Origin: a virus
IMG/VR virus record: IMGVR_UViG_3300046169_000011
Coordinates: 1-34,558 of that record
Length of the DNA: 34,558 bases
Direction: 5' to 3' (one strand)
The translations under genes and the position numbers were made by a program. Of this stretch, positions 1 through 34,062 are shown piece after piece (position 1 is the stretch's first letter; the number at the start of each line of letters is the position of its first letter). Below the pieces are notes generated by a model. That model worked only from the letters and a program-made list of their open reading frames with translations, did no database searches and was not told the origin of the DNA.

Positions 1-135
1 ACTACATAAGATTACACACGTACACGCGCCCCCCGCCCCCGCGGAAATAGTGGGATTGACATTTGCAAGCCTCGGGAATCCATAGGCAAACAAGCGGGCA
101 GGTACGCCTACGGGCAAGCGTGTGTATACGTGCGG
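1..135. repeat. Terminal redundancy, left copy (circular closure)
   Basis: These bases recur at the right end (34423-34558). The copies are identical except for a C homopolymer near position 28, six C here and seven in the right copy. The simplest reading is assembly overlap of a circular or terminally redundant phage genome of about 34,422 bp. A true short direct terminal repeat, as in T7, would look the same and cannot be excluded from sequence alone. Confidence 0.9.
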
Positions 136-230
136 GTACACACAGGCGTACACAGGCACACATACGCACACGATACGCACACACAGGCACACCTACGCGC
201 CTTACGCGCACAGACGCGCACACAGGCATT
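60..230. repeat. GC-rich CA/CG low-complexity repeat tract
   Basis: The tract consists of short irregular repeats. ACACAGGC occurs four times (140-147, 150-157, 181-188, 220-227), interspersed with ACGCRCAC units and long alternating purine-pyrimidine stretches. It also has an inverted repeat, GTGTGTA at 120-126 against TACACAC at 137-143. It is much more GC-rich than the AT-rich intergenic DNA on both sides. The open frames across it in several directions are products of the repeat and lack plausible start sites, so I do not call them genes. Its position between the two divergent promoters suggests a role in replication origin, packaging or transcription control; this is inference. Confidence 0.7.
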
Positions 231-285
231 GCAAAAAACTTTTACGGCTCAATCCCTTGCTATCACTGGGATACAGCGGTTTATG

Positions 286-346
286 CAAAAAAATATGAAA
301 AAAAATTCAAAAAGTTGTTGACAGTGGTTTGATGGGTCAGTATAGT
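286..346 (+). promoter_or_regulatory. Strong sigma70 promoter with UP-element-like A tracts
   Basis: TTGACA at 318-323 and TATAGT at 341-346 are separated by exactly 17 bases, near-consensus for host sigma70 RNA polymerase. Directly upstream (287-313) lie three phased A tracts that resemble a UP element contacting the RNA polymerase alpha subunit, so a strong promoter is expected. The predicted start is near 353, at the beginning of a structured leader. It is likely the main early rightward promoter. Confidence 0.8.
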
Positions 347-352
347 GGCAAC

Positions 353-703
353 CAATCGCTAGGAACAACGGCTGATTTGGGAGAAATACTTAGTGTCTAC
401 ACCGCGCCATAGGAGTGGTAGTTAGATAGACACCGAAAATCTACCGCCTAGCGACCTCGGATATAGCGTCAGGGTTTCGACCTGTAGAGATTTATTCTGT
501 ATGCCTATGGCTTAGAATACATCGAAGACATACTAGCCGAGCGAATAACCAAACGGGTTAATATGGGTTATCTGCTTGCGGTGATGGTGCTTCGGCACTG
601 GTGTTAAACAACGGCTACCAACCACTCAACATATCGACTTGTAAGGTTGTTCACCATAGGCAATCGCTGGTTGTTTATGGTGAATAACTTTAATGGTGAT
701 TTT
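353..703 (+). ncRNA. Candidate structured leader RNA or small RNA (about 350 nt)
   Basis: No reading frame stays open over this stretch, yet it is full of complementary segments. An 8-bp perfect long-range stem pairs 356-363 with 447-454 and encloses GTGTCT 393-398 / AGACAC 428-433. Other stems are CTCGG 456-460 / CCGAG 537-541, CAGG 470-473 / CCTG 481-484, TATTCT 493-498 / AGAATA 514-519 capped by GCC/GGC, ATAACC 545-550 / GGTTAT 566-571, and GTGC 587-590 / GCAC 595-598 closed by a UUCG tetraloop. Last comes a 13-bp stem with one G-U pair (646-658 / 676-688) just before the ribosome-binding site of the next gene. It lies directly downstream of the strong promoter. I do not recognise a known RNA family. 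It could be a regulatory 5' leader or an independent small RNA. Confidence 0.5.
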
Positions 704-1118
704 ATGAAACATTACAAACATAGCTATACAGAATTGGCTAAGATTGGTCGCAGGTACTACGGTGACTCTAATTTCTGCTCAGTGTTAGCGGTTGCGGTTG
801 TCGCAGATATTTCATACGGCAAGGCGTTTCCACGCTTACAAACGCGAGGGCAGACGTACTCGCACAGGTACTCGACAAATGATGCAACATCAGGTCTTAA
901 ATCAGTTTAAACTTGAAATCAGAACGCGATTACGACAAGACAGGCTATTTACTCAGGCAAGACACTAAACAACGTCTTAACGGCTTGCAAGCGTTGGTCT
1001 GGTAGATATCTGGTATACGTTCGAGGTCATGTGCTTGGCAGTGCGCGATGGTATATGCGAGGACTGGACTGCTGAGGGTTCAAGACGTAGAGTGATTGCA
1101 ATATACAAGGTGAGTTAA
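704..1118 (+). pseudogene. C39-like phage protein, reading frame broken three times
   Basis: ATG 704 follows a GGTGA ribosome-binding site. No single frame spans the gene, but joining frames gives a coherent protein of about 137 residues. Frame 1 encodes an N-terminal part with FCSVLAVAVVADISYGKAF; a +1 shift near 848 leads into GRRTRTGTRQMMQHQVL; a shift the other way between 917 and 960 leads into GRYLVYVRGHVL; a +1 shift at 1037 leads into AVRDGICEDW and RVIAIYKVS, ending TAA 1116-1118. This Cys, His, DW pattern matches small phage proteins with a papain/C39-like layout as I remember them, with putative catalytic Cys (776-778) and His (1028-1030). Function is unknown. The gene is either decayed or carries several sequencing indels. 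It is followed directly by a terminator. Confidence 0.5.
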
Positions 1119-1126
1119 TATATCAA

Positions 1127-1152
1127 GCCCCTTGAGGTGAGGGGGTTTTATT
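1127..1152 (+). terminator. Rho-independent terminator after the leader/704 unit
   Basis: CCCCT (1128-1132) pairs with AGGGG (1140-1144) around a 7-nt loop and is followed by TTTTATTA. It closes a transcription unit that begins at the 318-346 promoter, giving an RNA of about 800 nt. Read-through would be needed to reach the following small genes unless they have their own promoter. Confidence 0.7.
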
Positions 1153-1182
1153 ATACTAATTTAACTTTATGAGGTGATAAAA

Positions 1183-1554
1183 ATGTTTGAGATTAAATTT
1201 GATACTATGAAGCTGATTCTTGAGGAGGATATTAAAACAGAGACAGCTAAATTAGCCCTTGAAATGGATTACTTAGTAACTGGCGATATTCAGACCTTTA
1301 AGGAAGCCAAAGAGCAACACCAGATTTTGAAAGGCATTAAGCTTTTTTACGATAAAACTTTTACTGCGATGGATAAACACCATCTTGAATCGTTGGTATA
1401 TGACCACCCAGACTACAAACCACTGGCTAAGAAATACAGCGAAATCTGGAATCAACTTTTTGAAATGTCAGACGACTACTTTAACGAGTGGAATGAGTTG
1501 CAGTATAGATACAACTACAACGAAGAAGAGATGCTTGGATTTGTCATAGGTTAA
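1183..1554 (+). CDS. Hypothetical early protein, tandem paralogue 1 (C-terminus cut by TAA)
   Basis: This is a 123-residue charged protein of unknown function. I start at ATG 1183 because GAGGTGA (1171-1177) lies at ribosome-binding distance; the in-frame GTG 1174 overlaps that motif. Its last residues, MLGFVIG, match those of the next gene, where the sequence continues YNEAINNLE. Here the Tyr codon TAC is TAA, and the same frame continues NEAINNLE to a TAG at 1606-1608. The gene is therefore shortened by about 18 residues through a nonsense change, a sequence error, or a readthrough stop. The upstream ribosome-binding region also resembles that of the next gene, so the duplication includes the leader. 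Probably an early host-interaction protein (inference from position). Confidence 0.75.
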   Translation: MFEIKFDTMKLILEEDIKTETAKLALEMDYLVTGDIQTFKEAKEQHQILKGIKLFYDKTFTAMDKHHLESLVYDHPDYKPLAKKYSEIWNQLFEMSDDYFNEWNELQYRYNYNEEEMLGFVIG

Positions 1555-1617
1555 AATGAAGCTATCAATAACCTTGAATACTCTAAACAAGTTAAAAAGG
1601 TAGCATAGTTAATTTAT

Positions 1618-1645
1618 CGCGCCTATTGGCTAACAGTAGGCGTTA
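1618..1645 (+). terminator. Stem-loop between the two paralogues
   Basis: CGCCTA (1620-1625) pairs with TAGGCG (1637-1642), extended by a G-U pair, with an 11-nt loop and followed by TTATTAAATT. The U tract is weak, so it may be an attenuator or RNA-processing hairpin rather than a full terminator. Confidence 0.45.
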
Positions 1646-1676
1646 TTAAATTAATTAAACTTTTATAGGTGATAAC

Positions 1677-2036
1677 ATGAAAACAGACTACGAAATTGAA
1701 AAAGAAAACTTTGAAAAGCAAAGAGACCTTGAGTTAAAACAGGGCAGGGAAAAAATGACATTCTCCCTACGGGGCAACAATCGAGACTTCTACGCGTGGC
1801 AGTGTGTCAAGTTTGAAAATAGCCTAGCGCACTACGGCTTTGACCATGTAGCAACGAGGGAGCGTATACTTGAAGAAGGTTTAGTCTTCAATAAGCACAG
1901 TATCACGCTTGGGCATCAGTACGGTTATGACCTCAAGAACTTCAACAGTAAGGAGGAGATGCTTGGGTTTGTCATAGGCTACAACGAAGCCATCAACAAC
2001 CTTGAGCATGACAACCGAATCAAAAGCGCACAATAG
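1677..2036 (+). CDS. Hypothetical early protein, tandem paralogue 2
   Basis: This 119-residue protein has a charged, Lys/Glu-rich N-terminus (residues 1-25) that looks helical. The C-terminal segment MLGFVIGYNEAINNLE is shared with the gene just upstream, whose copy is interrupted by TAA. ATG 1677 has an AGGTGA site 5-6 bases upstream. No catalytic motif or membrane segment is visible and I do not recognise the family. It is likely an early gene of unknown function; the intact C-terminus makes it the reference copy of the pair. Confidence 0.75.
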   Translation: MKTDYEIEKENFEKQRDLELKQGREKMTFSLRGNNRDFYAWQCVKFENSLAHYGFDHVATRERILEEGLVFNKHSITLGHQYGYDLKNFNSKEEMLGFVIGYNEAINNLEHDNRIKSAQ

Positions 2037-2052
2037 GTAGTAAGCACCACAG

Positions 2053-2091
2053 AACGCCCTGTGTTCCCTTGTAGGGCGTTTTCTAGTGTTT
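2053..2091 (+). terminator. Rho-independent terminator after paralogue 2
   Basis: AACGCCCT (2053-2060) pairs perfectly with AGGGCGTT (2073-2080) around a 12-nt loop, followed by TTCTAGTGTTTATT. The run of T is interrupted but the 8-bp GC-rich stem is convincing. Confidence 0.7.
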
Positions 2092-2222
2092 ATTAGTAGG
2101 TATGTATAGGTTAGCCGTAAAATGGCTTAAAACGGCTTAGAATTAATTTAAAATAAAATGGAATAAAATTCCGTTTCAATTGTTTACTAGGGTACAATCA
2201 ATAAATTAATGGTGAATAAACA
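2092..2222 (+). promoter_or_regulatory. AT-rich intergenic region with hairpin and weak promoter
   Basis: The interval between the terminator and the next small gene holds an inverted repeat, GGAAT-AAA-ATTCC at 2160-2172, extendable with flanking A/T pairs and one G-U. A TACAAT hexamer lies near 2195 but no good -35 box stands 17 bases upstream. A promoter for the next gene cluster is expected here because a terminator precedes it, but the sequence support is weak. Confidence 0.3.
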
Positions 2223-2459
2223 GTGAATATTAAAACAGTGCAAAAGTGGTTGGGTAAACGTAGACTGGATAAAGTAGAGAATATATTTGTCTCCGAGTGG
2301 ATTGATGGCATAGGGATTGAGATATTCCTTAAAGAGGGTTATATAGTCGGGAGCGGTCATAACAACACTGTCATTGATTACGTCAAGCAGGACTATGATA
2401 CTTGGCAGGATATTAAAAGTAATATATTATATGAATTTAACTTGATAGAAGAGGTGTAA
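2223..2459 (+). CDS. Small hypothetical early protein (78 aa)
   Basis: The predicted start is GTG 2223. The nearby ATG 2210 is out of frame and stops after five codons, and its GGTGA neighbourhood can serve as ribosome-binding site for the GTG. The product has a basic N-terminus (VQKWLGKRRLDK) followed by an acidic half. No known motif is visible. It opens a run of small closely packed genes whose ends overlap, consistent with one polycistronic message. Confidence 0.6.
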   Translation: MNIKTVQKWLGKRRLDKVENIFVSEWIDGIGIEIFLKEGYIVGSGHNNTVIDYVKQDYDTWQDIKSNILYEFNLIEEV

Positions 2460-2460
2460 C

Positions 2461-2610
2461 ATGAATTATTCAGCGGAAAGATATTTAGCACTAAAACAGT
2501 TTGAACGGGAGCAACAACGCGATAAGATACGCGCGCTATTGTGGAATGTATCCGTTGGCGGGTTGTATGCTATGGTAGTGATTCAAGTATTTACAGGGGT
2601 TATATCATGA
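2461..2610 (+). CDS. Small membrane protein (49 aa)
   Basis: ATG 2461 is preceded by GAGGTGTAAC, a good ribosome-binding site overlapping the end of the previous gene. The N-terminal half is charged (residues 1-25, rich in Glu, Arg, Gln) and the C-terminal half is one hydrophobic segment, about residues 26-48 (LLWNVSVGGLYAMVVIQVF). It overlaps the next gene by ATGA. It is probably a single-pass inner-membrane peptide; function unknown. Confidence 0.6.
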   Translation: MNYSAERYLALKQFEREQQRDKIRALLWNVSVGGLYAMVVIQVFTGVIS

Positions 2611-2783
2611 AATATAAAGTAGGTTTCCATTACGTAGAAAATGCCACTATAGAAGTAGAGGCAAATAGTAAAGAGGAGGCGCAACTGTTGGTGCTAGATA
2701 TGCTAGATGATGAGGGCGTGCCTGATGATGCTGACCCGATACAGCGCGAGTGGTCGGTGGATATAATAGAGGAGGTGCTATAA
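2607..2783 (+). CDS. Small acidic hypothetical protein (58 aa)
   Basis: I chose ATG 2607 because it overlaps the upstream stop as ATGA, typical of translational coupling, although the frame is open further upstream. The product is strongly acidic with the segment DMLDDEGVPDDADP. The beta-strand-like N-terminus and EANSKEEAQ segment recall small phage proteins that carry a YxV..EVEA(N/D)S.EEA pattern, but I cannot assign a function. Acidic early proteins in phages sometimes mimic DNA; that is speculation here. Confidence 0.6.
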   Translation: MKYKVGFHYVENATIEVEANSKEEAQLLVLDMLDDEGVPDDADPIQREWSVDIIEEVL

Positions 2784-2923
2784 TGTTATATACAATATGG
2801 GTTGGTGGTGTAGAGGTAACAGCGCACCTAACGAATAGAGAGGAAGCCTATAGGATAGCTAGTAACTGGCGGAATGACGGCTATACTGACGTAATAGTAG
2901 AGAGGTATAAGCCCTATGCATAA
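2783..2923 (+). CDS. Small hypothetical protein (46 aa)
   Basis: The ATG at 2783 shares a base with the preceding TAA and sits behind GGAGGTG, an excellent ribosome-binding site. The peptide starts MLYTIWVGGVEV and contains LTNREEAYRIASNW, a beta-strand then helix layout similar to its upstream neighbour. No function is recognised. It overlaps the next gene by eight bases. Confidence 0.6.
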   Translation: MLYTIWVGGVEVTAHLTNREEAYRIASNWRNDGYTDVIVERYKPYA

Positions 2924-3083
2924 CGTTCTTAGATTGTGGCGTATATGGGCTAAGGCACTTGGTGAGAAGTCAGGTGCTAGTGACCGCGAGGCTGATTACA
3001 TTGCCATTGTGCGTAGTGTAATTGTAGGGTTGAATTTTATTACCTGTTTGTTTATAATTGCAGGTGTCATTCATAATTGGTAA
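2916..3083 (+). CDS. Small membrane protein (55 aa)
   Basis: ATG 2916 lies inside the end of the previous gene. The first 25 residues are basic and helical (RLWRIWAKALGEKSG), followed by one hydrophobic segment, about residues 31-53 (VRSVIVGLNFITCLFIIAGV), with a short tail. It is likely a single-pass membrane protein. Similar short proteins accompany early genes in other short-tailed phages as far as I remember; role unknown. The opposite strand also has an open frame here, but it lacks a gene context. Confidence 0.6.
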   Translation: MHNVLRLWRIWAKALGEKSGASDREADYIAIVRSVIVGLNFITCLFIIAGVIHNW

Positions 3084-3098
3084 AGAGAGGCTAAGACA

Positions 3099-3317
3099 AT
3101 GAGTAAAGACTATCAGGAACAAGCGCATCTTGAAGATGTAGCAGACAAACAGTACAATATGCAACAGTACTGGCAAGAGTTAACAGACTATGAGCGCGGA
3201 GAGTATGACGCGTTAAATGGATACAACTGTGACCCCGAAGAAAGCGACCAGTACAAACAAGGTTTCGCTCAGGGTTACGAATACGCACAACAAATGGGAG
3301 CAAATAGTAATGAGTAG
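3099..3317 (+). CDS. Hypothetical acidic protein with Tyr/Gly repeats (72 aa)
   Basis: ATG 3099 follows GAGAGG. The C-terminal half, with GEYDALNG, YKQGFAQGY and EYAQQ, has the spaced Gly/Tyr pattern seen in small RMF-like and related phage proteins (G-x-A-x-x-G...G-x-x-x-G-Y-x-x-A). A ribosome-modulation-factor relationship is only suggested by pattern and is weak. It overlaps the next gene by eight bases. Confidence 0.65.
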   Translation: MSKDYQEQAHLEDVADKQYNMQQYWQELTDYERGEYDALNGYNCDPEESDQYKQGFAQGYEYAQQMGANSNE

Positions 3318-3546
3318 ATATGATGATTGTGGGAGTTACGATTACAGTGATTACTGTGAGGGCAAGGGGTACTACGAGAGTTACGTAGAGAAACCTTTTG
3401 ACGAAGACGAGGCATCACTAAGACGAATTGAAGCAAGAGAGGAGGCAGAGAGAGAAGCAAAGCTATACCCGCCAATAGGCAAGCATGAGATGCAGAAAAT
3501 AATACAGGAAGTTAAAACAAGACTAGGAGCAAAAAGTAATGATTAA
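3310..3546 (+). CDS. Hypothetical Tyr/Asp-rich protein (78 aa)
   Basis: I start at ATG 3310, which overlaps the end of the preceding gene; the frame is open further upstream but runs inside that gene. The N-terminus is rich in Asp, Tyr, Ser and Gly (residues 1-30), followed by a charged helix rich in Arg and Glu (ASLRRIEAREEAEREAK). The layout suggests a disordered head and a helical tail. No known domain. Start and stop overlaps on both sides suggest coupled translation. Confidence 0.6.
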   Translation: MSRYDDCGSYDYSDYCEGKGYYESYVEKPFDEDEASLRRIEAREEAEREAKLYPPIGKHEMQKIIQEVKTRLGAKSND

Positions 3547-3751
3547 TGCAAGTATATTTAACAAACTATTAACAGTGGAACTAAGGAATGGCGTAGGTAT
3601 AGACTTGGAGTTTGTAGACTCAAGACCAGTATGGACTTACAACCACTTAACGGAGGAACACAGCACGATGCCCTTTGAGGGTGTCGTAGTGTTACTGCCA
3701 TTCCTAGTGATAACCTATGGAAGACCATACAAGGAAATTGAAGATGAGTAG
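3539..3751 (+). CDS. Hypothetical protein (70 aa)
   Basis: ATG 3539 overlaps the previous stop region. The product is mostly beta-like, with a hydrophobic patch, FEGVVVLLPFLVITYG, near residues 46-61 that could be a buried core or a short membrane contact. No recognised motif. It belongs to the same overlapping small-gene string. Confidence 0.55.
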   Translation: MINASIFNKLLTVELRNGVGIDLEFVDSRPVWTYNHLTEEHSTMPFEGVVVLLPFLVITYGRPYKEIEDE

Positions 3752-3920
3752 ATGCAAAGCCTGTGACGTTATACTGACCGAGGCTGAACTTAGGAAGCGT
3801 GATAGAGTGACAGACGAACACCTAGATTTATGTGCAGTTTGTCATTCAGCTTCAGACGAAGCGATAGAAGAGAACTGGGCAACAGCAGAGGAGAGAGAAA
3901 TAATTAGGAGTAATAATTAG
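3744..3920 (+). CDS. Small zinc-finger protein (58 aa)
   Basis: ATG 3744 lies within the end of the preceding gene. The protein has two CxxC pairs, CKAC at residues 4-7 and CAVC at about 30-33, spaced as in a single zinc-binding finger, followed by an acidic C-terminal helix (DEAIEENWATAEEREI). It probably binds zinc and may act as a small regulator or adaptor. This is the last gene before the replication promoter. Confidence 0.65.
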   Translation: MSRCKACDVILTEAELRKRDRVTDEHLDLCAVCHSASDEAIEENWATAEEREIIRSNN

Positions 3921-3926
3921 CTTATG

Positions 3927-3964
3927 GGTAATGGGGGACGTTTCTCTAGTATTCCTACATTACC
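3927..3964 (+). other. Inverted repeat at the end of the early gene string
   Basis: GGTAATG (3927-3933) pairs perfectly with CATTACC (3958-3964), with possible inner pairing of GGGGA with TTCC. No T tract follows, so this is not a classical terminator. It may be an operator or an RNA-processing hairpin between the early string and the replication promoter. Confidence 0.4.
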
Positions 3965-3994
3965 AGTACCTAATTCAAATTGACTATATAGGAG

Positions 3995-4023
3995 TTGCAA
4001 TCGGTAAACAAACATGATATACT
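3995..4023 (+). promoter_or_regulatory. Sigma70 promoter for the replication module
   Basis: TTGCAA (3995-4000) and TATACT (4018-4023) are separated by 17 bases. The predicted start near 4030 gives an AT-rich leader of about 85 nt before the SSB gene. The leader contains the palindrome AAGTATACTT (4067-4076) and the motif ATACTTAAGTAATCTT (4071-4086), which recur upstream of the packaging genes. Confidence 0.7.
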
Positions 4024-4064
4024 ATACATATGTACTTTAGTTTATAACCTTTAAAGATATATTC

Positions 4065-4086
4065 TAAAGTATACTTAAGTAATCTT
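4065..4086 (+). promoter_or_regulatory. Operator-like palindrome AAGTATACTT plus ATACTTAAGTAATCTT
   Basis: The palindrome AAGTATACTT (4067-4076) sits inside the leader of the SSB gene. The overlapping 16-base stretch ATACTTAAGTAATCTT differs by one base from a stretch in the - strand leader of the small terminase gene (34163-34148). Recurrence in two leaders driving different modules suggests a shared regulator site or leader function; the binding protein is unknown. Confidence 0.5.
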
Positions 4087-4113
4087 TAATTAATAACACA
4101 AAGGTAAATTACT

Positions 4114-4482
4114 ATGGCAGTACTAGAAGGTAACGTAGCGTTCGCAAACCTTGACGAACACGAAGAATATCAGGGTCAATCAACTGGTAAGTATTCACTG
4201 GTCTTATCCTTAGAACCAGAAGATGCAGATAAACTAGCCAGTAAGGGTGTCAAACTCCGAGAGTACGAAGGTACAGCACAACGTAAGTTTAGTACCAAGT
4301 ACGAAGTACCGATGTTTGATGCAGATGGTAAGGACTTTGTAGGTCGCTTGACCAGAGGCTCTAAGGTACGAGTCAAGTACGCAGAGGGTAAACCTCACCC
4401 AGTACACGGCACGTCAACGTATCTATCAGCCATCAAGGTGATTGAACTCGCAGAAGCTACCGAAGGAGGTGGTGACTTCTAA
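4114..4482 (+). CDS. Single-stranded DNA-binding protein (T7 gp2.5-like)
   Basis: The 122-residue protein begins the replication module and overlaps the primase-helicase start (TAATG). It has beta-rich spacing typical of an OB fold (residues 1-110) and ends in a short acidic, Gly-rich tail finishing in Phe (TEGGGDF). Such a tail is the hallmark by which phage SSBs contact polymerase and helicase. It likely coats ssDNA at the fork. It is much shorter than T7 gp2.5 (232 aa). ATG 4114 follows AAAGG at a loose distance. Identity rests on size, tail and position, so a related ssDNA-binding family is possible. Confidence 0.7.
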   Translation: MAVLEGNVAFANLDEHEEYQGQSTGKYSLVLSLEPEDADKLASKGVKLREYEGTAQRKFSTKYEVPMFDADGKDFVGRLTRGSKVRVKYAEGKPHPVHGTSTYLSAIKVIELAEATEGGGDF

Positions 4483-6103
4483 TGACTGACTCGCATTTTG
4501 TTAAACATGAGCCATGCCCTTCGTGTGGCTCTAAGAACAATCTCGCGAGGTACTCCGATGGTCATGCCGTCTGTTTTACAGGCGGTTGTGACCACTACGA
4601 GAGAGGCAACGGAGAGGTTGTAGAAAGTAAACCCAAAGCAAATAGGCGATTAGAGATGACAGGAGTAGTAGCATCAATACCCGATAGACGTATCTCAGAG
4701 GCAACGTGCAAGAAGTTTGGCGTTACAGTTGAGTACGATACAGAGGGTCAGATAAGCAAGCATCACTACCCATACTTTGACAAGGACACAGGCGCGCAGA
4801 CAGGGAACAAGTCACGCATAGTAAGCAGTAAATCATTCTATGCAAGCGGTACGTTCGACAACGTGGGTCTGTTTGGTCAGCAAGCGTTTAAAGGTGGTGG
4901 TAAATACATAACAGTAGTAGAGGGAGAAGCTGATGCCCTAGCGGTGTCAGAGAATGTTTGATGGTAAGTGGGCTGTAGTGTCAATACGCTCAGGAGCATC
5001 AGGCGCAGTGAAGGACATCAAGCAGAACTTGGAGTGGCTTGAATCATTCGAGAACGTAGTCATCTGTTTCGACAGTGACAATGCGGGTCAGGAAGCATCT
5101 CGTGCGGTGTTAGATTTATTTACACCCAACAAAGCGAAGAACGTAAAGTTACCTGTCAAGGATGCAGGTGAAATGCTGAAGGAACGCAACGTGCAAGGGT
5201 TCATCAGGGAGTGGTGGAACGCTAAGACGTATCAACCAGATGGTATCATCGCAGGACTAGATACTTGGGATTCAATCGTAGCACAGGAGGACGTTAAGTC
5301 CATTCCGTATCCTTGGACTTGCTTGAATGAGATGACCTATGGTTTCAGGGAGAAGGAACTAGTAACGATAACCAGTGGTTCTGGTATGGGTAAGTCACAG
5401 ATTGTCAGAGAGTTGGAGCACTACTTACTAGGCGCAACAGATGACAACATTGGCATACTCGCATTGGAAGAAGACATACCTAAGACTGCTCTAGGGATTA
5501 TGAGCATCGAGGCAAACCAGACTCTACATCTGAGCCGAGAGTTTAGCAGGGAAGACAAAAAGGTATTCTGGGACAACACGTTAGGTACAGGACGTATCTA
5601 TATGTTCGACCACTGGGGTTCTACCAATGAGGATAACTTACTAAGTCGCATTAGGTATATGGCGAAAGGTCTTGATTGTAAATGGATTATTCTCGACCAC
5701 TTGAGTATTGTTGTGTCAGACCAAGAGAATGGTGATGAACGTAAAGCCATTGACAGTATCATGACTAAGCTACGACAGTTGGTTCAGGAGACAGGTGTTG
5801 GTTTATTCTTGGTGTCACACCTACGTAGACCATCAGGGAAGGCACATGAAGATGGTGGACAGATTAGCTTGGCTGAGTTACGAGGTTCAGCGGCAATCGC
5901 ACAGCTATCGGACATGGTGATTGGTTTAGAACGTGACCAACAGAACCCAGATGCACAGGTAAGGAATACCAACTACAGTACGGATACTTAAGAACCGATA
6001 CGCAGGACTTACGGGGGCGGCTTGCTACCTCTACTATGACAAAGATACTGGGCGTATGATTGAAACAACTTGTCCAGTTAACGATGATAATCAGGAGTTC
6101 TAA
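4482..6103 (+). CDS. T7 gp4-like primase-helicase, frame broken twice
   Basis: Joined across two single-base extras, this gives about 539 residues (T7 gp4A is 566). A zinc finger with Cys12, Cys15, Cys31 and Cys36 (primer-site recognition) leads into a TOPRIM primase core (EGEADAL, CFDSDNAG) and then a RecA-like hexameric helicase with Walker A SGSGMGKS, Walker B WIILDHLSI and the SHLRRPSG motif. The first frame ends at TGA 4959-4961 (GTT TGA T) and continues +1 as DGKWAVVSIRSGA. The second ends at TAA 5989-5991; the conserved TTTVRILKNRYAG tail lies +1, with an extra A at 5971-5972. The true stop is TAA 6101-6103. The enzyme unwinds DNA and lays primers for the polymerase encoded next. Breaks are likely sequence errors, see findings. 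Confidence 0.85.
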
Positions 6104-7826
6104 GTGAAGCAGGTAGTATTTGATATAGAAGCTAACGGACTAAAGCCTACAAAGGTTTGGGTAATCGTTGCTTGTGACCTATCAAGCCAAGAGACAGTTA
6201 CGTTCTCAGGTGATACGTTGCAGGACTTCAATGCTTATATCAAAGATGCTGAGGTCATTGGTCACAACATCATTGGCTATGACGTACCAGTTCTTGAACG
6301 ATTGTTAGGGTACAGACTTTAGTAGTTGTAAGATTACAGATACATTAGTATTGTCACGACTCACTGACCCATCAAGGGAAGGTGGTCATTCATTGGACAG
6401 TTGGGGACAGCGTTTAGGTTTCCCGAAAGGAGAACATAATGATTGGGACACATTTTCTCAGGATATGGTGGACTACTGTAAGCAAGATGTGCTTGTTAAT
6501 GTCAAAGTGTACAACGCACTACGAGGTGTATTGGCAGGTTTCGGAAGCGAAAGCATTAGCCTTGAGCATCAAGTACAAAGCATTATTACAAAGCAGACAG
6601 AAAACGGTTGGTTGTTAGACCAAGAACACGCTTTCCTATTGCTTGCACAACTTAAGGAAAAGAAGTACGACCTTGAAGATAAGGTACATGAAACATTTAA
6701 ACCGTTACCTACATTCGTTAAGGAGATAACACCTAAGTACAAGAAGGACGGCACGATGTCCGTAGTTGGTCTTAAGTTTCTAGGAGACCAGTGGGAGAAC
6801 TATACAGCACCTTTCAGCCGTATTGATTACCCTGCGTTTAACTTAGGTTCACGTCAGCAGATAGGCAGATACTTGCAGTTCTTTGGTTGGAAGCCAGAGA
6901 AGTTTACAGAGAAGGGACACGTTATTGTAGACGAAGCTATACTGTCTAAGGTCACTGGTATACCCGAAGCTAATATGATTGCTGAATACCTAATGGTTCA
7001 GAAGCGTATCGCACAGGTACAGAGTTGGCTAGATGCTGTCGAAGATGATGGACGAGTGCATGGCTATGTAAATGCTAACGGTGCTGTAACGGGACGTATG
7101 ACACACTCTAGTCCCAATGTAGCACAAGTGCCTAGCTCAGGCGCACCCTACGGCAAGGACTGTAGAGCCTGTTGGACAGTACCCAAAGGCTACAAGGTTG
7201 TCGGTATGGACGCATCAGGGCTTGAGCTACGTATGCTTGCACATTATATGAACGATGAGGGATATACAAATGAAATACTCACTGGAGACATTCATACAGC
7301 AAACCAACTTGCTAGTGGTGTTGACACAAGAAGTCAAGCAAAGACTTTCATATATGCGTTCTTGTATGGAGCAGGGGACGCAAAAATCGGAAGTATCGTT
7401 GGAGGAACTGCTGTTGATGGTAGAAGACTTAAGGCGAAGTTCCTCTCAAACACGCCATCTCTTAAAGACTTACGAGAAAGAGTTAGCGTGGCATCTGGAA
7501 GAGGTTATGTTCACGGACTGGACAGGCGCAGAGTCGCTGTACGCTCAGAACACTCAGCACTAAACACTTTGCTACAATCGGCAGGGGCTATCGTTATGAA
7601 GAAGGCGTTATGTTTGCTAGACGAATACGCTAGTGCTTGGAATATTGACTACAAATTTATAGGTAATATACATGATGAAATTCAAACAGAAGTTAAGGAA
7701 CATGAAGCAGAGGTTTTTGGCAGACTTGCAGTGTCTTGTATCGAAGCCGCGGGCATTCATTACAAACTTAATTGTCCTCTTGCAGGAGAGTATCAAGTCG
7801 GTGACAACTGGTCGGAAACCCACTAA
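6104..7826 (+). CDS. Family A DNA polymerase (T7 gp5-like), one +1 frame break
   Basis: The start is GTG 6104, directly after the helicase stop, with AGGAG upstream. Residues FDIEANG carry the 3'-5' exonuclease Asp7/Glu9. The first frame stops at TAG 6320-6322 (CTT TAG T); the +1 frame continues SSCKITDTLVLSRL, the conserved T7 gp5 exonuclease region. The palm has motif A (VVGMDASGLELRM), motif B in the fingers (RSQAKTFIYAFLYGAG) and motif C (NIHDEIQTE). The fingers residue equivalent to E. coli Phe762 is Tyr, as in T7. Joined length is about 573 residues, shorter than T7 gp5 (704). It replicates the phage genome with the upstream primase-helicase and SSB. No thioredoxin-binding insertion could be confirmed by eye. 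Confidence 0.9.
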
Positions 7827-7968
7827 GCGTTGTATATCTTGTGGTGTCAAACTTAAGGAAGGTGTGAACTGGTGGAAATCCTTTGTAGGTAAGAACCACT
7901 ATAAATGTATGCTGTTACGCGATACGAAGAGAAGAGAACAAACGAAAAAAACTACAGAGAGAAGGTAA
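7801..7968 (+). CDS. Small zinc-finger protein after polymerase (55 aa)
   Basis: GTG 7801 overlaps the polymerase end in another frame; AGGAG is upstream but about 12 bases away, so the start is tentative. The peptide has a CISC pair near residues 11-14 and a later H-Y-K-C (about residues 34-37), separated by KEGVNWWKS, resembling a small zinc knuckle, and ends in a very basic tail rich in Lys, Arg and Thr. It likely binds nucleic acid. Similar Cys-rich peptides lie near replication genes in other phages; function unknown. Confidence 0.55.
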   Translation: MTTGRKPTKRCISCGVKLKEGVNWWKSFVGKNHYKCMLLRDTKRREQTKKTTERR

Positions 7969-7973
7969 ATAAT

Positions 7974-8387
7974 ATGAAGCCTTGTAAAGCAGATAGGAAG
8001 AAGTTTGACCTCGACTTGCAGTACGGAGAAGTCCGAGAGGATAAGGTAGCTGAGATGCTACAGGACAAGAAGATTGAGGTTAAGTCAGAGAAGGACTTAT
8101 GGCAGAAGACAGGTAACATCTGCATTGAGTATGAGTCTTGGGGCAAGCCGTCAGGCATTGAGGCTACCGAGTCAGACTACTGGTTTCATAACCTTTGCAT
8201 CGGTGATGATGAATACTGTACACTAGTGTTCAAGACACCTGTACTAAAGAAGATTGTTAATAAGTTAGATACGTTCAGGAGTGTATCAGGGGGAGACCAT
8301 AACGCAAGCCGTATGCACTTGGTCAATCTTAAAAAGTTATTCTCAAGCGATGTCATTAAGGCATTCAAGGATATAGACGATGAGTAA
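7974..8387 (+). CDS. PD-(D/E)XK-like nuclease (137 aa)
   Basis: ATG 7974 has GAGAGAAGG upstream. Residues GEVRED (18-23) and the strand KIEVKSE with Glu35 and Lys37 form a plausible PD-(D/E)XK active site, followed by CIEYES and DYWFHN as in small phage resolvase/nuclease relatives. The gene overlaps the next nuclease gene by eight bases. It may cut or process host or replicating phage DNA. Assignment to the superfamily is moderately supported; substrate is unknown. Confidence 0.6.
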   Translation: MKPCKADRKKFDLDLQYGEVREDKVAEMLQDKKIEVKSEKDLWQKTGNICIEYESWGKPSGIEATESDYWFHNLCIGDDEYCTLVFKTPVLKKIVNKLDTFRSVSGGDHNASRMHLVNLKKLFSSDVIKAFKDIDDE

Positions 8388-9255
8388 AACAATACACACA
8401 TTAGTAGATGACATATACCGATTGATGGAGACAAAAGAGGCAGAGGAATCCGTAGACGTAGAGGCTGAGATTGAACTGTTCGGTGAGAACATGAAGGCTC
8501 TAATGCGCACAGAGTTTGGACGTAAGCGTACAACGGATAGAAGAACATTGCGCCTGTCAAACATTGGTCGTGACGATAGGGTCTTATGGAATGTTGTTAA
8601 TGGTACTGAGAAGGAAGAGATTAAACCTGCTACCTACATTAAGTTTATGTATGGTCACTTGATTGAAGAGATGCTGTTGTTTATGACACGCATGGCAGGA
8701 CACGAAGTATCAGACGAGCAACGTGTATGTGAAGTAGAGGGTATCAAGGGACACATGGACTGTAAGATTGATGGTCTTGTTGTGGACGTTAAGTCAGCCA
8801 GTTCCTTTGGGTTCAAGAAGTTTAAGGACGGTACACTAGCTATGGACGATGCCTTTGGTTATGTTGACCAGATTAAAGCCTACGCCCATGCCTGTGGTGA
8901 GACTGAGTTCGGTTGGTTAGCTATGGACAAAGCCAATGGACATCTCGCGGTACTTAAGTACGACCTAGAGGATACCCAAGCCCCTATACACGAACACATC
9001 AAGGGAGACATCAGGGAGCGTATTAAGCACGTTAAGGAGATGGTTAAGGGAGATGAGCCCACTGAGTTATGTACCGAGACAGTACCAGATGGTAAGTCAG
9101 GTAACAAGAAGTTAGGCATCAAGTGTTCCTACTGTCAGTACAAGAAGCATTGCTATCCAGACCTAAGAGCCTTTGCCTATTCGTATGGTCCGAAGTTCCT
9201 AAGTGAGGTAGTCAACGAGCCTAGAGTACAGGAGATTAACCTTGAGCAAATATAA
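8380..9255 (+). CDS. RecB/Cas4-like exonuclease (291 aa)
   Basis: The protein has the RecB-type nuclease order: His93 in YGHLIEE, Asp127 in GHMDCKIDG, Asp136 and Lys138 in VVDVKSA, then Gln164 in YVDQIKAY. Four Cys at 231, 249, 252 and 258 (CSYCQYKKHC) resemble the C-terminal Fe-S or zinc cluster of AddB/Cas4-like exonucleases. It probably degrades or resects duplex DNA, in nucleotide recycling or recombination. It overlaps both neighbours, which are also nucleases. Confidence 0.75.
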   Translation: MSKTIHTLVDDIYRLMETKEAEESVDVEAEIELFGENMKALMRTEFGRKRTTDRRTLRLSNIGRDDRVLWNVVNGTEKEEIKPATYIKFMYGHLIEEMLLFMTRMAGHEVSDEQRVCEVEGIKGHMDCKIDGLVVDVKSASSFGFKKFKDGTLAMDDAFGYVDQIKAYAHACGETEFGWLAMDKANGHLAVLKYDLEDTQAPIHEHIKGDIRERIKHVKEMVKGDEPTELCTETVPDGKSGNKKLGIKCSYCQYKKHCYPDLRAFAYSYGPKFLSEVVNEPRVQEINLEQI

Positions 9256-9643
9256 GCCTAGAAAGACTAGCGGTAAGTTTAGGTCAGCACTAGAGAAGGA
9301 GTTTTCAAAGGAGGTTAAACGTAAAGGGTTTGACTACGAGCCATACGGTATGCCTTACACAGTGTTCAGAACTTATATGCCAGACTTTGTACATGAACCA
9401 AGTAAAACAGTAGTAGAAGTAAAAGGTTTCTTTCGTGTAGGTGACACCTTGAAATATAAGTCAATTCGTGATACAATATCAGTAGATGGTTACGAATTAG
9501 TATTCCTACTATCGAATGAACATAAGAAGGTACGGAAGGGCGGTAAGATTACAATGGGTCAGTGGTGTGAGAAGGAAGGTATGAAACACTACACCCTAAG
9601 TACCGCACAAGAACTTGTCAAATACGTTGAAGGGAAAGAATAA
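9242..9643 (+). CDS. T7 endonuclease I-like Holliday junction resolvase
   Basis: The 133-residue protein starts at TTG 9242, within the end of the previous gene. Glu20, Asp48, Glu59 and Lys61 (TYMPDFV ... VVEVKGFF) match the order of the catalytic residues of T7 endonuclease I (E20, D55, E65, K67). The C-terminal segment KVRKGGKITMGQWCEKEG is also typical. It should resolve branched replication intermediates and help break down host DNA. Length is close to T7 gp3 (149 aa). Confidence 0.88.
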   Translation: MSKYKPRKTSGKFRSALEKEFSKEVKRKGFDYEPYGMPYTVFRTYMPDFVHEPSKTVVEVKGFFRVGDTLKYKSIRDTISVDGYELVFLLSNEHKKVRKGGKITMGQWCEKEGMKHYTLSTAQELVKYVEGKE

Positions 9644-9807
9644 TGTCACATACATTAGAGGAACTCAAGGAAGCAGTAGCAAGGGACTACGATGCGGTAC
9701 TGGTTGTCGAAGCATTGGACATCTCAGTTGAGGACTTGCTAGAGGCTTTCGAGGATAGATTAATTAGGAACAGAGACTTATTTACGGAGGATGATTATGA
9801 GCATTGA
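9643..9807 (+). CDS. Small acidic hypothetical protein (54 aa)
   Basis: The ATG overlaps the endonuclease stop (TAATG). The product is helical and acidic (SHTLEELKEAVARDYDAV), with a Leu-rich middle, LDISVEDLLEAFEDRL, that resembles a short helix-turn-helix-like module but without a clear recognition helix. It overlaps the next gene by eleven bases and ends DDYEH. Confidence 0.6.
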   Translation: MSHTLEELKEAVARDYDAVLVVEALDISVEDLLEAFEDRLIRNRDLFTEDDYEH

Positions 9808-9973
9808 TGACGATATTAAAGAAAGAGATATGTACGACAACAATCCTGATTCACCTCATTATGGTGAGATAATAGGAATGGCTGATATTGTAGCTGAGAT
9901 TGAGGCATTGAGAAAGAAAGCTGATAAGGCGAGAAAAAGAAAGCTATTTAGGAGTTTAAACAATGAGCATTGA
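9797..9973 (+). CDS. Small hypothetical protein (58 aa)
   Basis: ATG 9797 is preferred over ATG 9791 because GGAGG (9786-9790) then has proper spacing. The N-terminus is acidic (MSIDDDIKERD) and the C-terminus a basic helix (LRKKADKARKRKLF). The first 16 bases of the gene are identical to those of the next gene at 9963, and both overlap the preceding gene in the same way. Confidence 0.6.
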   Translation: MSIDDDIKERDMYDNNPDSPHYGEIIGMADIVAEIEALRKKADKARKRKLFRSLNNEH

Positions 9974-10271
9974 TGACGCAACACCCGCTGACTGGGATGC
10001 ACTACGACAGAAGCACCCTGCTTTGATTAAGAAGTATGAAGACTTCGTGACCAAGAATGAAGATGTGGTCAACAGTCCTCAGCACTATAACTACGGTAAG
10101 ATAGAATGTATTGAAGCTATTGAAGAGTCTATGACACCAGACGCATTCAAGGGTTATCTCAAGGGCAATACTATGAAGTACCTGTGGCGTTATGAACGCA
10201 AGGGCAAAGCAGTAGAGGACTTAGAGAAAGCCCAGTGGTACTTGAATAGACTGATAGAGGAGGCTAAGTAA
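9963..10271 (+). CDS. DUF3310-family protein (102 aa)
   Basis: Residues 35-100, beginning VNSPQHYNYGKIECIEAIEE and including KGNTMKYLWRYERKGK and ALEKAQ-like AVEDLEKAQWYLNRL, are the classic DUF3310 domain found in many phages and described by some annotators as nucleotide-kinase-like. The real activity is unproven. It starts at ATG 9963 inside the previous gene. Being next to nucleotide metabolism (the reductase at 10405) fits a nucleotide-related role. Confidence 0.85.
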   Translation: MSIDDATPADWDALRQKHPALIKKYEDFVTKNEDVVNSPQHYNYGKIECIEAIEESMTPDAFKGYLKGNTMKYLWRYERKGKAVEDLEKAQWYLNRLIEEAK

Positions 10272-10408
10272 TGCAGGGACAGACACACGGAGGCAAGGGG
10301 TCAGGACAACGACCCACTGACTCCAAGAAGTATGCAGATAATTACGATGCCATCTTCGGTAAAGACAAACAGAAAACTAAAGACAAAAAGAAGGAAGTTA
10401 AAAAATGA
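10271..10408 (+). CDS. Small Lys-rich hypothetical protein (45 aa)
   Basis: The ATG overlaps the DUF3310 stop (TAATG), and the end overlaps the reductase start by four bases (ATGA). The peptide has a Gly-rich head (GGKGSGQRPTDSKKY), then DNYDAIFGKDK, a pattern common to tiny phage proteins of unknown role, and a Lys-rich tail. Confidence 0.6.
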   Translation: MQGQTHGGKGSGQRPTDSKKYADNYDAIFGKDKQKTKDKKKEVKK

Positions 10409-12282
10409 ATCAATACCAACAGTTTATACACAAGTCCCGCTACGCACGTTGGCTACCAGAGGAAGGCAGACGAGAGCGTTGGGATGAGACAGTCAATAGA
10501 TACGTAGACTTCTGGAAGGAACGTGGTCAGATAAACGATAAGACAGCACTACAGTTATTTAACGCTATCCATAACCTAGACGTAATGCCTAGTATGCGTT
10601 GTATGATGACAGCAGGGGAAGCACTGGACAAGGACAACGTAGCGGGTTTTAACTGTAGCTATCTACACATTGACTCACCACGTAGCTTTGATGAACTTAT
10701 GTACGTGCTTATGTGCGGTACAGGCGTAGGGTTCAGTGTGGAACGTAACTTCATCAACAAGCTACCTATAGTTGCTGAGTCATTCCATGAGACTGACAGT
10801 ACGATTGTAGTGGCTGACAGCAAGATTGGTTGGGCTAGTGCATTCAGAGAGTTAATCGCTATGCTGTACGCAGGTAAGATACCTAAGTGGGATACACATA
10901 AAGTACGTCCTGCGGGTGCTAGACTCAAGACCTTTGGTGGTCGTGCATCAGGCGCACAGCCTCTTGAGGATTTATTTAATTTCTGTGTAGGTATATTCCA
11001 AAAGGCAAAGGAACGTAGACTTACCAGTATTGAGTGTCACGACATCTGCTGTAAGATTGCTGAGGTTGTAGTCGTAGGTGGTGTACGTAGGTCAGCATTG
11101 ATTAGTCTATCTAACTTGTCAGACCCTCGTATGGCTAAGGCTAAGTCAGGTGACTGGTGGCGTAACGAAGGTCAACGTGCATTGGCTAACAACAGTGTAT
11201 CATACACAGAGAAGCCAGACTTTGAATCCTTCCTGTCCGAGATGCAAACCATGTATGAATCTAAGGCAGGGGAACGAGGTATCTTTAGTCGTGTGGCGGC
11301 ACAGAAGATAGCCGCTAAGAACGGACGGAGAGACCATGAGCAGGACTTTGGGACTAACCCTTGCTCTGAGATTATCCTACGCAGTAATCAGTTCTGTAAC
11401 CTATCTGAGGTCGTTATACGTGCAGACGATGACCTCGTTAGTCTTAAGAAGAAAGTTGAAGTAGCTTCCATTATCGGAACTCTACAGGCTACCTTGACTG
11501 ACTTCCGCTACCTACGCAATGTATGGAAAAGAAACACAGAAGAAGAAGCACTATTAGGTGTCAGTTTAACGGGTATATGTGACCACTATTTACTAGGTAA
11601 AGATTCACCAGACTTAGATAAGTGGCTAGGAGAGATGAAGGATGTTGCTATCAAAACTAATAAAGAATGGGCTGAGAAACTTGGCATTAATCAGTCTGCG
11701 GCTATTACTTGTGTTAAGCCAAGCGGTACTGTGTCTCAGCTTGTTGACTCTGCTAGTGGCATACATCCCCGTTTTTCTAAGCATTATATCCGTAGAGTAC
11801 GTTCAGATAAGAAAGACCCGCTTGCTCAATACATGACAGCCGCAGGTTTCCCTGTAGAAGATGACGTAATGAGTAAGTCTTCACTGGTCTTTGGCTTCCC
11901 AATCAAGTCACCTGACAGCAGTACTACAGTAGCTCAGGTGGGTGCGATGGAACAGCTAAGAGTTTGGAAGAAATACCAAGACCACTGGTGTGAGCATAAA
12001 CCAAGTATCACTGTTTACTATACAGATAATGAGTTCCTGCAAATAGCACAGTGGATATGGGAAAACTTTGATTCCGTTAGTGGTATTAGTTTGTTGCCTG
12101 TGAGTGACCATGTTTATCAGCAAGCTCCTTATGAGAACATAACCGTTGACAAGTATGAAGAGTTACTAGCGGCTATGCCAGTTGATATTAATTGGGAAGA
12201 CTTAGAACACTTTGAGAAGGAGGATAATACTACAGGTTCACAGGAACTAGCGTGTGTCGGAGGCGCGTGTGAAATAGCATAG
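10405..12282 (+). CDS. nrdJ: Class II (B12-dependent) ribonucleotide reductase, monomeric
   Basis: This 625-residue protein converts ribonucleotides to deoxyribonucleotides using adenosylcobalamin, feeding phage replication. Visible landmarks are Cys84 (GFNCSY) and Cys331 (FCNLSEV), a redox pair; Cys320 and Glu322 in NPCSEI, the thiyl-radical site; the phosphate-binding KPSGTVSQ loop; and the C-terminal pair CVGGAC that passes electrons. The pattern matches the monomeric class II enzymes (Lactobacillus RTPR type, 739 aa). It is the last gene of the replication arm, followed by a terminator. Dependence on host-derived B12 links the phage to B12-producing or B12-using hosts; host identity is inference. 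Confidence 0.92.
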   Translation: MNQYQQFIHKSRYARWLPEEGRRERWDETVNRYVDFWKERGQINDKTALQLFNAIHNLDVMPSMRCMMTAGEALDKDNVAGFNCSYLHIDSPRSFDELMYVLMCGTGVGFSVERNFINKLPIVAESFHETDSTIVVADSKIGWASAFRELIAMLYAGKIPKWDTHKVRPAGARLKTFGGRASGAQPLEDLFNFCVGIFQKAKERRLTSIECHDICCKIAEVVVVGGVRRSALISLSNLSDPRMAKAKSGDWWRNEGQRALANNSVSYTEKPDFESFLSEMQTMYESKAGERGIFSRVAAQKIAAKNGRRDHEQDFGTNPCSEIILRSNQFCNLSEVVIRADDDLVSLKKKVEVASIIGTLQATLTDFRYLRNVWKRNTEEEALLGVSLTGICDHYLLGKDSPDLDKWLGEMKDVAIKTNKEWAEKLGINQSAAITCVKPSGTVSQLVDSASGIHPRFSKHYIRRVRSDKKDPLAQYMTAAGFPVEDDVMSKSSLVFGFPIKSPDSSTTVAQVGAMEQLRVWKKYQDHWCEHKPSITVYYTDNEFLQIAQWIWENFDSVSGISLLPVSDHVYQQAPYENITVDKYEELLAAMPVDINWEDLEHFEKEDNTTGSQELACVGGACEIA

Positions 12283-12289
12283 GTAAAAC

Positions 12290-12314
12290 TAAGGGGGCGC
12301 AATGCCCCCTTTTG
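12290..12314. terminator. Bidirectional terminator between convergent arms
   Basis: GGGGGC-GCAAT-GCCCCC (about 12292-12308) forms a very stable hairpin, followed by TTTTG on the + strand and CTTAGTTTT on the - strand. It sits in the 32-base gap between the reductase (+) and the last structural gene (-) and likely stops transcription from both sides. Confidence 0.85.
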
Positions 12315-33662: not shown

Positions 33663-34062
33663 CTATAGTTTCCCCTTCTAAGATGTCATCTTCTTCTTCG
33701 TTGTTTGACACCACCGTGGTCTCTCCACCAACTCCAGTAATGTTTATCTGTATTGCTGACTTCCCTGCGCCTTTGACAACATCCTTTTCAAATGCACCTA
33801 CAGGGACAATCCTATCAACAATTAGTTTCCAAGCGGCTGACTGATGCTTGTGGTCATCGTTAAGTGCCGCATCAAATATTGACTCCAACACTTTCCTTGA
33901 CTTAGGTGAGGTCAACATCCTACTCTTGTACTCGTTGATTATAGCCGCATCACCTTTGGGTCTACCTCTGGATAAACCAGTTGACCCTCTTTTTCTTGAC
34001 ACCACATCTGATTTCCGTGGTCTGCCCCTCCTCTTTTTAGGAGTAGCAGTATTATTGTCCAT
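33655..34062 (-). CDS. Terminase small subunit candidate with AT-hooks (135 aa)
   Basis: The first gene of the structural arm, with AAGGAGAG before ATG 34062. The N-terminal region has two AT-hook-like motifs, KKRRGRPRKS (residues 9-18) and SRGRPKG (about 31-37), which bind AT-rich minor groove, then helical segments (KSRKVLESIFDAALNDD, SAAWKLIVDRIVP) and an acidic tail. Position two genes upstream of the large terminase and DNA-binding character support a small terminase that recognises packaging DNA. Sequence family not otherwise confirmed. Confidence 0.72.
   Translation of the reverse strand: MDNNTATPKKRRGRPRKSDVVSRKRGSTGLSRGRPKGDAAIINEYKSRMLTSPKSRKVLESIFDAALNDDHKHQSAAWKLIVDRIVPVGAFEKDVVKGAGKSAIQINITGVGGETTVVSNNEEEDDILEGETIDG

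Follow-up and report, generated by a model that had tools for sequence, protein, structure and literature searches.

What, if not a protein, is encoded in the 350 or so nucleotides that separate the first early promoter of a phage from its first early gene? The question arises at positions 353-703 of the IMG/VR virus record IMGVR_UViG_3300046169_000011, which was analyzed over its whole length of 34,558 bases (positions 1-34,558, hereafter the window). The rightward genes up to position 12,282 comprise early and replication genes (gp2.5-like SSB, primase/helicase, family A DNA polymerase, Cas4-like exonuclease, endonuclease, and ribonucleotide reductase), and the leftward genes from position 34,062 include head and terminase genes, among them the terminase large subunit. 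A T7-like RNA polymerase (PF00940) was found neither in the window nor in 6 related records by a search that matched the positive control, phage LUZ100.

The segment follows a sigma-70-type promoter on the + strand (318-346), which consists of TTGACA (318-323), a 17-bp spacer, and TATAGT (341-346), matches the consensus at 11 of 12 positions, and has a predicted start at ∼352-354. Its -35 box is abutted by an A-tract-rich, UP-element-like stretch (284-317, + strand), so the near-consensus promoter with upstream A tracts described in the initial annotation is present. This promoter ranks first among 22 promoter-like matches in positions 1-12400 of the window, where the number of such matches does not exceed that in shuffled sequences. 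In most relatives inspected, the RNA is preceded by a -10 box in the equivalent position. As judged from the sequence, positions 353-703 are the predicted 5' leader of the first early transcript of the phage. Two further features of the upstream regions were observed. A low-complexity, ACACRCG-rich tract (window 1-235) separates the genome end from the first promoter, with a similar tract before the promoter in L004. In a subset of relatives (L030 at ∼950-1020, and upstream of the RNA in L096, L115, L208, and L263), a conserved block, TTGTCGCAACCAGATATATCTATGTCGCAAATAGATAAGC, stands in place of the -35 box and carries a repeated TGTCGCAA, perhaps an activator site.

The + strand of the leader has a folding energy of -109.9 kcal/mol (z -3.5), which none of 100 dinucleotide shuffles equals. 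The - strand of the same segment does not surpass all of its shuffles (z -0.9), and eight coding stretches taken from the window for comparison give z values from +0.8 to -1.8. The open reading frames in 345-703 are only 24-39 amino acids long, barring an upstream-extended reading of the gene at 704, here called ORF1, which agrees with the earlier statement that the segment has no open frame. The possibility that read correction would reveal an intact coding frame across the leader had also been raised. Relatives with an intact ORF1 show the same non-coding leader, and since their ORF1 begins at the same ATG, there is no frame for read correction to reveal.

Relatives were gathered from IMG/VR contigs via the DNA polymerase and then via ORF1, and two short-motif pattern scans added more. 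The leader was found upstream of ORF1 in dozens of related uncultured phages, and all 35 distinct contigs that carry the class A motif have ORF1 adjoining. Matches to the class B pattern that lack ORF1 were judged on inspection to be chance; the one exception, L146, is a true copy truncated where its contig ends. A broader ORF1 search yielded 80 loci, including more distant classes. The 155 ORF1 loci with at least 330 nt upstream were reduced to 50 distinct upstream sequences, the count used below because the 155 include contigs reached by more than one route. None of the relatives' sequences inspected has a terminator between the RNA and ORF1. The scan of bacterial genome contigs for the class A motif gave no match, and in the cultured phages Limnohabitans DC31 and Acidovorax ACP17 an ORF1-type gene lies mid-operon with no gap before it.

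Searches with blastn using three leaders found no match in 50,697 phage records. Rfam 15 contains no family that the window matches at the gathering score, and at E≤10 it returned only sub-threshold chance matches to miRNA and snoRNA families. The leader RNA is not described in the open-access literature searched, which is weak evidence, given that subscription papers fell mostly outside that scope. Large structured phage RNAs are already a known kind; as an RNA family, the leader appears to be new.

The core of the leader consists of two domains on the + strand. The first (356-454) contains helices P1 (356-363/447-454), P2 (374-378/437-441), P3 (393-398/428-433), and P4 (401-405/415-419), together with a CGG/CCG pairing (369-371/444-446), and has equivalents in class A. 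The second (456-541) is formed by P5 (456-460/537-541), P5b (468-470/527-529), and P6 (493-499/513-519). In the class A alignment of 18 sequences the core comprises eight nested helices and one loop-loop pair; standard pairs fill 97.8% of cells, and both partners have changed in 32 of 43 pairs. The class A covariation score is 0.565 compared with 0.216 in shuffles (none of 500 reaching it), and structures shifted by 1-3 columns pair at only 35-46%; in these comparisons the structures, being derived from the tested sequences themselves, are favored over slid versions, and the shuffles ignore relatedness. Within the window's own clade (6 sequences), 98.7% of cells are paired and 11 of 50 pairs have changed on both sides. 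For example, P6 changes from TATTCTG/TAGAATA to TGCACTG/TAGTGCA. P1, previously noted as an 8-bp long-range pairing, covaries from TCGCTAGG/CCTAGCGA to TCACTAGC/GCTAGTGA. In the 18-sequence alignment, a C-A combination at columns 21/76, beside P2, was seen by eye to alternate in step with U-G, the pattern expected of an isosteric non-standard pair.

Two lines of evidence are free of the derivation and kinship biases, namely covariance model matches in other classes and the presence of the kissing pair there. A model built from class A alone matches members of other classes, L096 (8e-21), L082 (1.5e-9), and L086 (1.4e-5). With filters off, its alignment to window positions 365-546 scores 16.4 bits (E 7e-5 in a search of 701 bases); when 631 kb were searched with default settings, the window was not among the matches at E≤1.

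The kissing pair, which had escaped the initial annotation, joins the P4 loop CCATAGG (407-413) to the P6 loop CCTATGG (504-510), both on the + strand, and covaries across classes. Among relatives the P4/P6 loops form 6-7 bp in many versions: CCAAGG/CCTTGG, CCACGG/CCGTGG, CCTAGG/CCTAGG, CCGAGG/CCTCGG, CCGCGG/CCGCGG, CCATGG/CCATGG, CTACGG/CCGTAG, and CCACAGG/CCTGTGG. An automatic search detected the pair in 45 of the 50 distinct ORF1-upstream sequences, compared with 4.6% when the searched sequence was shuffled; since the search accepts any qualifying loop, chance may account for a few of the 45. The five misses are L239, L244, and three cultured Pseudomonas phages; in L239 both halves are visible by eye and the stem fails the search rule. 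The window carries this hallmark of the family, complementary P4 and P6 loops at the expected place upstream of ORF1. The pair may form within one molecule or between two.

With abundant compensatory changes, no Rfam family, and no intact frame, the earlier suggestion that the leader is a structured RNA belonging to a new family has held up. The leader almost certainly belongs to a structured RNA family that is missing from Rfam 15.

Downstream of the core and just before ORF1 lies a 3' module composed of domain III and a 3' hairpin. Segment a, GAATAACC (543-550, + strand), is complementary to segment b, GGTTGTTC (645-652, + strand), with 8 of 8 pairs in the window and in nearly all relatives. 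In class A, a 12-bp helix nested in a:b has 88% of cells paired and changes on both sides in 4 of 12 pairs. Segment b is also complementary to segment c (679-688), and b:c forms the base of the 3' hairpin (646-658/676-688, + strand), with 10 of 10 pairs in the window. The hairpin covaries in class A and is followed by no U-run terminator; a few bases separate its end from TGGTGA (694-699, + strand), the ribosome-binding site of ORF1. Thus b has two conserved possible partners, which suggests an alternative fold. The pair evidence for a:b is weak because a:b hardly varies in the tested set; it consists of complementarity and two coordinated changes among distant sequences (C-G to U-A in L143/L172 and U-A to C-G in L121). 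The ribosome-binding site is exposed in both the a:b and b:c states. A further candidate pairing of segment a with the next GGTTAT-like segment shows no covariation in the tested set, and so was not counted as supported; a matching change was seen by eye in L128.

The initial annotation had already placed alternative folds just before the ribosome-binding site. Such folds look real, with different partners: the competitor that relatives conserve for 645-652 is 543-550, a pairing that had gone unnoticed, and not CCAACC (618-623), which is present in the window and is not kept in relatives (ATTACC in L151). The second copy of GGTTGTT (669-675) likewise exists in the window and is not kept in the relatives inspected, and the UUCG hairpin (∼584-600) has UUAU or UUAG at this place in those relatives. 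The 13-bp stem 646-658/676-688 fared better: its equivalents in relatives covary, so that the compensatory changes proposed as a check were found for both this stem and the 8-bp pairing.

ORF1 (704-1118, + strand) belongs to the family phrog_3754, annotated as of unknown function. Its frame is broken in the record, where two profile matches begin in different frames at 704 and 993; the frameshifts may reflect mutation or sequencing error, and relatives carry intact copies. An AlphaFold2 model of an intact relative (32 sequences, mean pLDDT 90.9) shows a papain-like arrangement. The best match among solved structures is the C39-type peptidase domain of a PCAT transporter (6mpz; E 0.03, probability 0.99, TM ∼0.5), and no solved structure was matched at E 0.001. 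Cys25, His108, and Asp119 are invariant. The model thus points to a papain/C39-like fold for ORF1. Terminator-like hairpins follow ORF1 and the third early gene on the + strand (window 1128-1144 and 2051-2082); they are kept in the window's class and absent in class A by the same rule. Elsewhere in the early region, a 53-bp stretch that encodes EEMLGFVIGYNEAINNLE occurs in two early genes (window 1525-1577 and 1953-2005) with 87% identity, so these genes look like partial duplicates.

Comparison of the core, the 3' module, and ORF1 between relatives points to modular exchange. L007, with a class C core, and L128, with a class A core, are only 61% alike in the core, which is about the level of other cross-class pairs measured, while their 3' modules are 97% and their ORF1 genes 90% alike. 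Similar patterns of core, 3' module, and ORF1 likeness are seen in L203/L208 (60/92/62%), L258/L254 (62/82/70%), and L263/L137 (62/80/67%), and the converse case is L128/L110, with 84% in the core, 63% in the 3' module, and 35% in ORF1. As read from these identities, the core (P1-P6) is exchanged between phages as a unit and the 3' module stays with ORF1. Because the core is exchanged independently of the 3' module and ORF1, we take it to serve something besides ORF1, and the 3' module to serve ORF1.

How might such an RNA work? In the model that we favor, the host sigma-70 polymerase would start at ∼353, and the nascent RNA would fold into a compact core (P1-P6) locked by the 7-bp kissing pair of the P4 and P6 loops. 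The second module, domain III with the 3' hairpin, would then fold just before ORF1. The core would act in cis on some host factor that the transcript encounters during its synthesis, RNA polymerase being the likeliest, in a manner comparable to the HK022 put RNA, and the phage, for which no T7-like polymerase was found, would be efficiently read from its first promoter. The 3' module would set the expression or processing of ORF1 through the choice between a:b closure and the b:c hairpin. A cis-acting leader that aids the host polymerase is favored because of its position, its promoter, the missing T7-like polymerase, and the analogy to putL. We infer that action mainly in cis is reasonably probable. 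The complete explanation, a cis-acting leader of a new family with a put-like effect on a host factor and a 3' module controlling ORF1, is the best that we can offer, and is put forward tentatively as somewhat short of probable.

The putL site closely follows the early promoter PL and needs no protein for its action on polymerase; the put RNA is ∼70 nt long and forms two stem-loops (PMC9378689). The likeness is that of a folded RNA right behind an early phage promoter (here 318-346, with the RNA from ∼353), a layout repeated in relatives. In contrast to the two stem-loops of put, the leader has ∼300 nt, eight helices, a loop-loop lock, and a separate 3' module; its length of about four times that of put RNA and its unrelated fold count against a put-like reading. 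Binding of the β′ zinc-binding domain and suppression of pausing and termination are features of put, to which the leader is likened by position only. Counted in favor of antitermination are the strong terminator-like hairpins downstream in class B, the window's class, 13 on the + strand and 0 on the - strand. Since such hairpins were found only in this class, antitermination has no obvious need in class A. Altogether, a put-like action on polymerase is a doubtful part of the model.

The alternative that survives best is a trans-acting noncoding RNA: cleavage at the long 3' hairpin by an enzyme such as RNase III would release the core from the ORF1 messenger, and the core would act separately. 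It may inhibit a host machine or serve as its decoy, or oligomerize via its complementary loops, whose pairing could be intermolecular, as in GOLLD and ROOL (PMC12286853). The size and complexity of the core, the long conserved 3' hairpin, and the exchange of the core independently of ORF1 all suit such an RNA; an exchangeable core fits it as well as it fits a cis-acting leader, and to that extent counts against the latter. On the other hand, the core always lies directly upstream of ORF1 without a terminator of its own, and the Rfam search of the window revealed no likeness to known free RNAs, so we consider a separate trans-acting RNA somewhat unlikely. In T7, the early RNase III sites include a long hairpin that lies after the first early promoter and ahead of the first early gene. 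The leader's hairpin occupies the same kind of place, as read from sequence alone, and we know of no comparable structured core upstream of it in T7.

Another possibility is a switch for ORF1, in which the core would sense a ligand, a protein, or temperature, and the choice of a:b or b:c would alter translation or stability of the ORF1 messenger. The two conserved partners of b, the 3' module that travels with ORF1, and the hairpin end a few bases before the ribosome-binding site would all fit this role. However, that site is hidden in neither state, the 3' hairpin lacks a U-run, the a:b pair has the weak evidence described above, and no riboswitch family was matched, which makes a switch distinctly unlikely.

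A packaging RNA like that of phi29 is very improbable. The leader resembles it as a phage RNA with pairing loops encoded near the genome end, and would lie beside the terminase genes if the genome ends meet; in L006 and L014, a terminase small-subunit-like gene is ∼600-700 nt away across the divergent region. However, the fold differs, the Rfam pRNA family was not matched, transcription runs away from the terminase together with an early gene, and the phage encodes a conventional terminase large subunit rather than a phi29-type ATPase. Finally, a decayed or misassembled coding region that merely looks structured, to which the frameshifts of ORF1 in the record might point, was ruled out by stem changes on both sides, the kissing pair, the cross-class model matches, the lack of a conserved frame, and the same non-coding leader in relatives with intact ORF1, and retains a negligible probability.

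Returning to the proposed cis-acting leader, its nearest counterparts in style are GOLLD and ROOL, which are large, strongly structured phage RNAs with kissing loops and without known function (PMC12286853); their covariance models give no match to the leader. GOLLD lies near tRNAs and is made late, whereas the leader is placed at the first early promoter. Type III toxin-antitoxin RNAs consist of tandem repeats with a terminator before the toxin, unlike the single unrepeated RNA described here, which has no terminator before ORF1 in the sequences inspected. Few phage RNAs so large and so strongly constrained are known. The leader adds a family lacking in Rfam 15 and would bear on how phages without an RNA polymerase of their own take over host transcription. 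In a bolder and equally tentative form of the proposal, which we would not yet call probable, the core represents a phage RNA machine of a new class, locked by a loop-loop pair, exchanged as a cassette among uncultured phages, and seizing a host function as soon as infection begins; it may be, for example, a protein-free antitermination RNA unrelated to put or an RNA that forms oligomers via complementary loops. The leader is directly testable because of its fixed place at the first early promoter, its predictable 5' end, its small partner gene, natural variants in which the modules are separated, and a loop-loop pair that small changes could disrupt and rebuild.

A similar arrangement was observed in the cultured Pseudomonas phages K8, COT4, and their relatives, where an operon containing an ORF1-like gene opens with a folded gap of 390-440 nt. 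Its sequence is unrelated to that of the leader, the class A model gives no convincing match, and the kissing pair is absent. The Pseudomonas-phage RNA is non-coding and strongly folded (L268 930-1290 in K8, L267 640-1060 in COT4, and L269 600-930 in Ep020), has no Rfam match, and contains stems that covary by eye. Similar sequence occurs in 150 records, some phages (COT4, KIL) carry a portion of it at a second locus, and in phage YS35 a 13-nt 'sRNA' is annotated at this locus.
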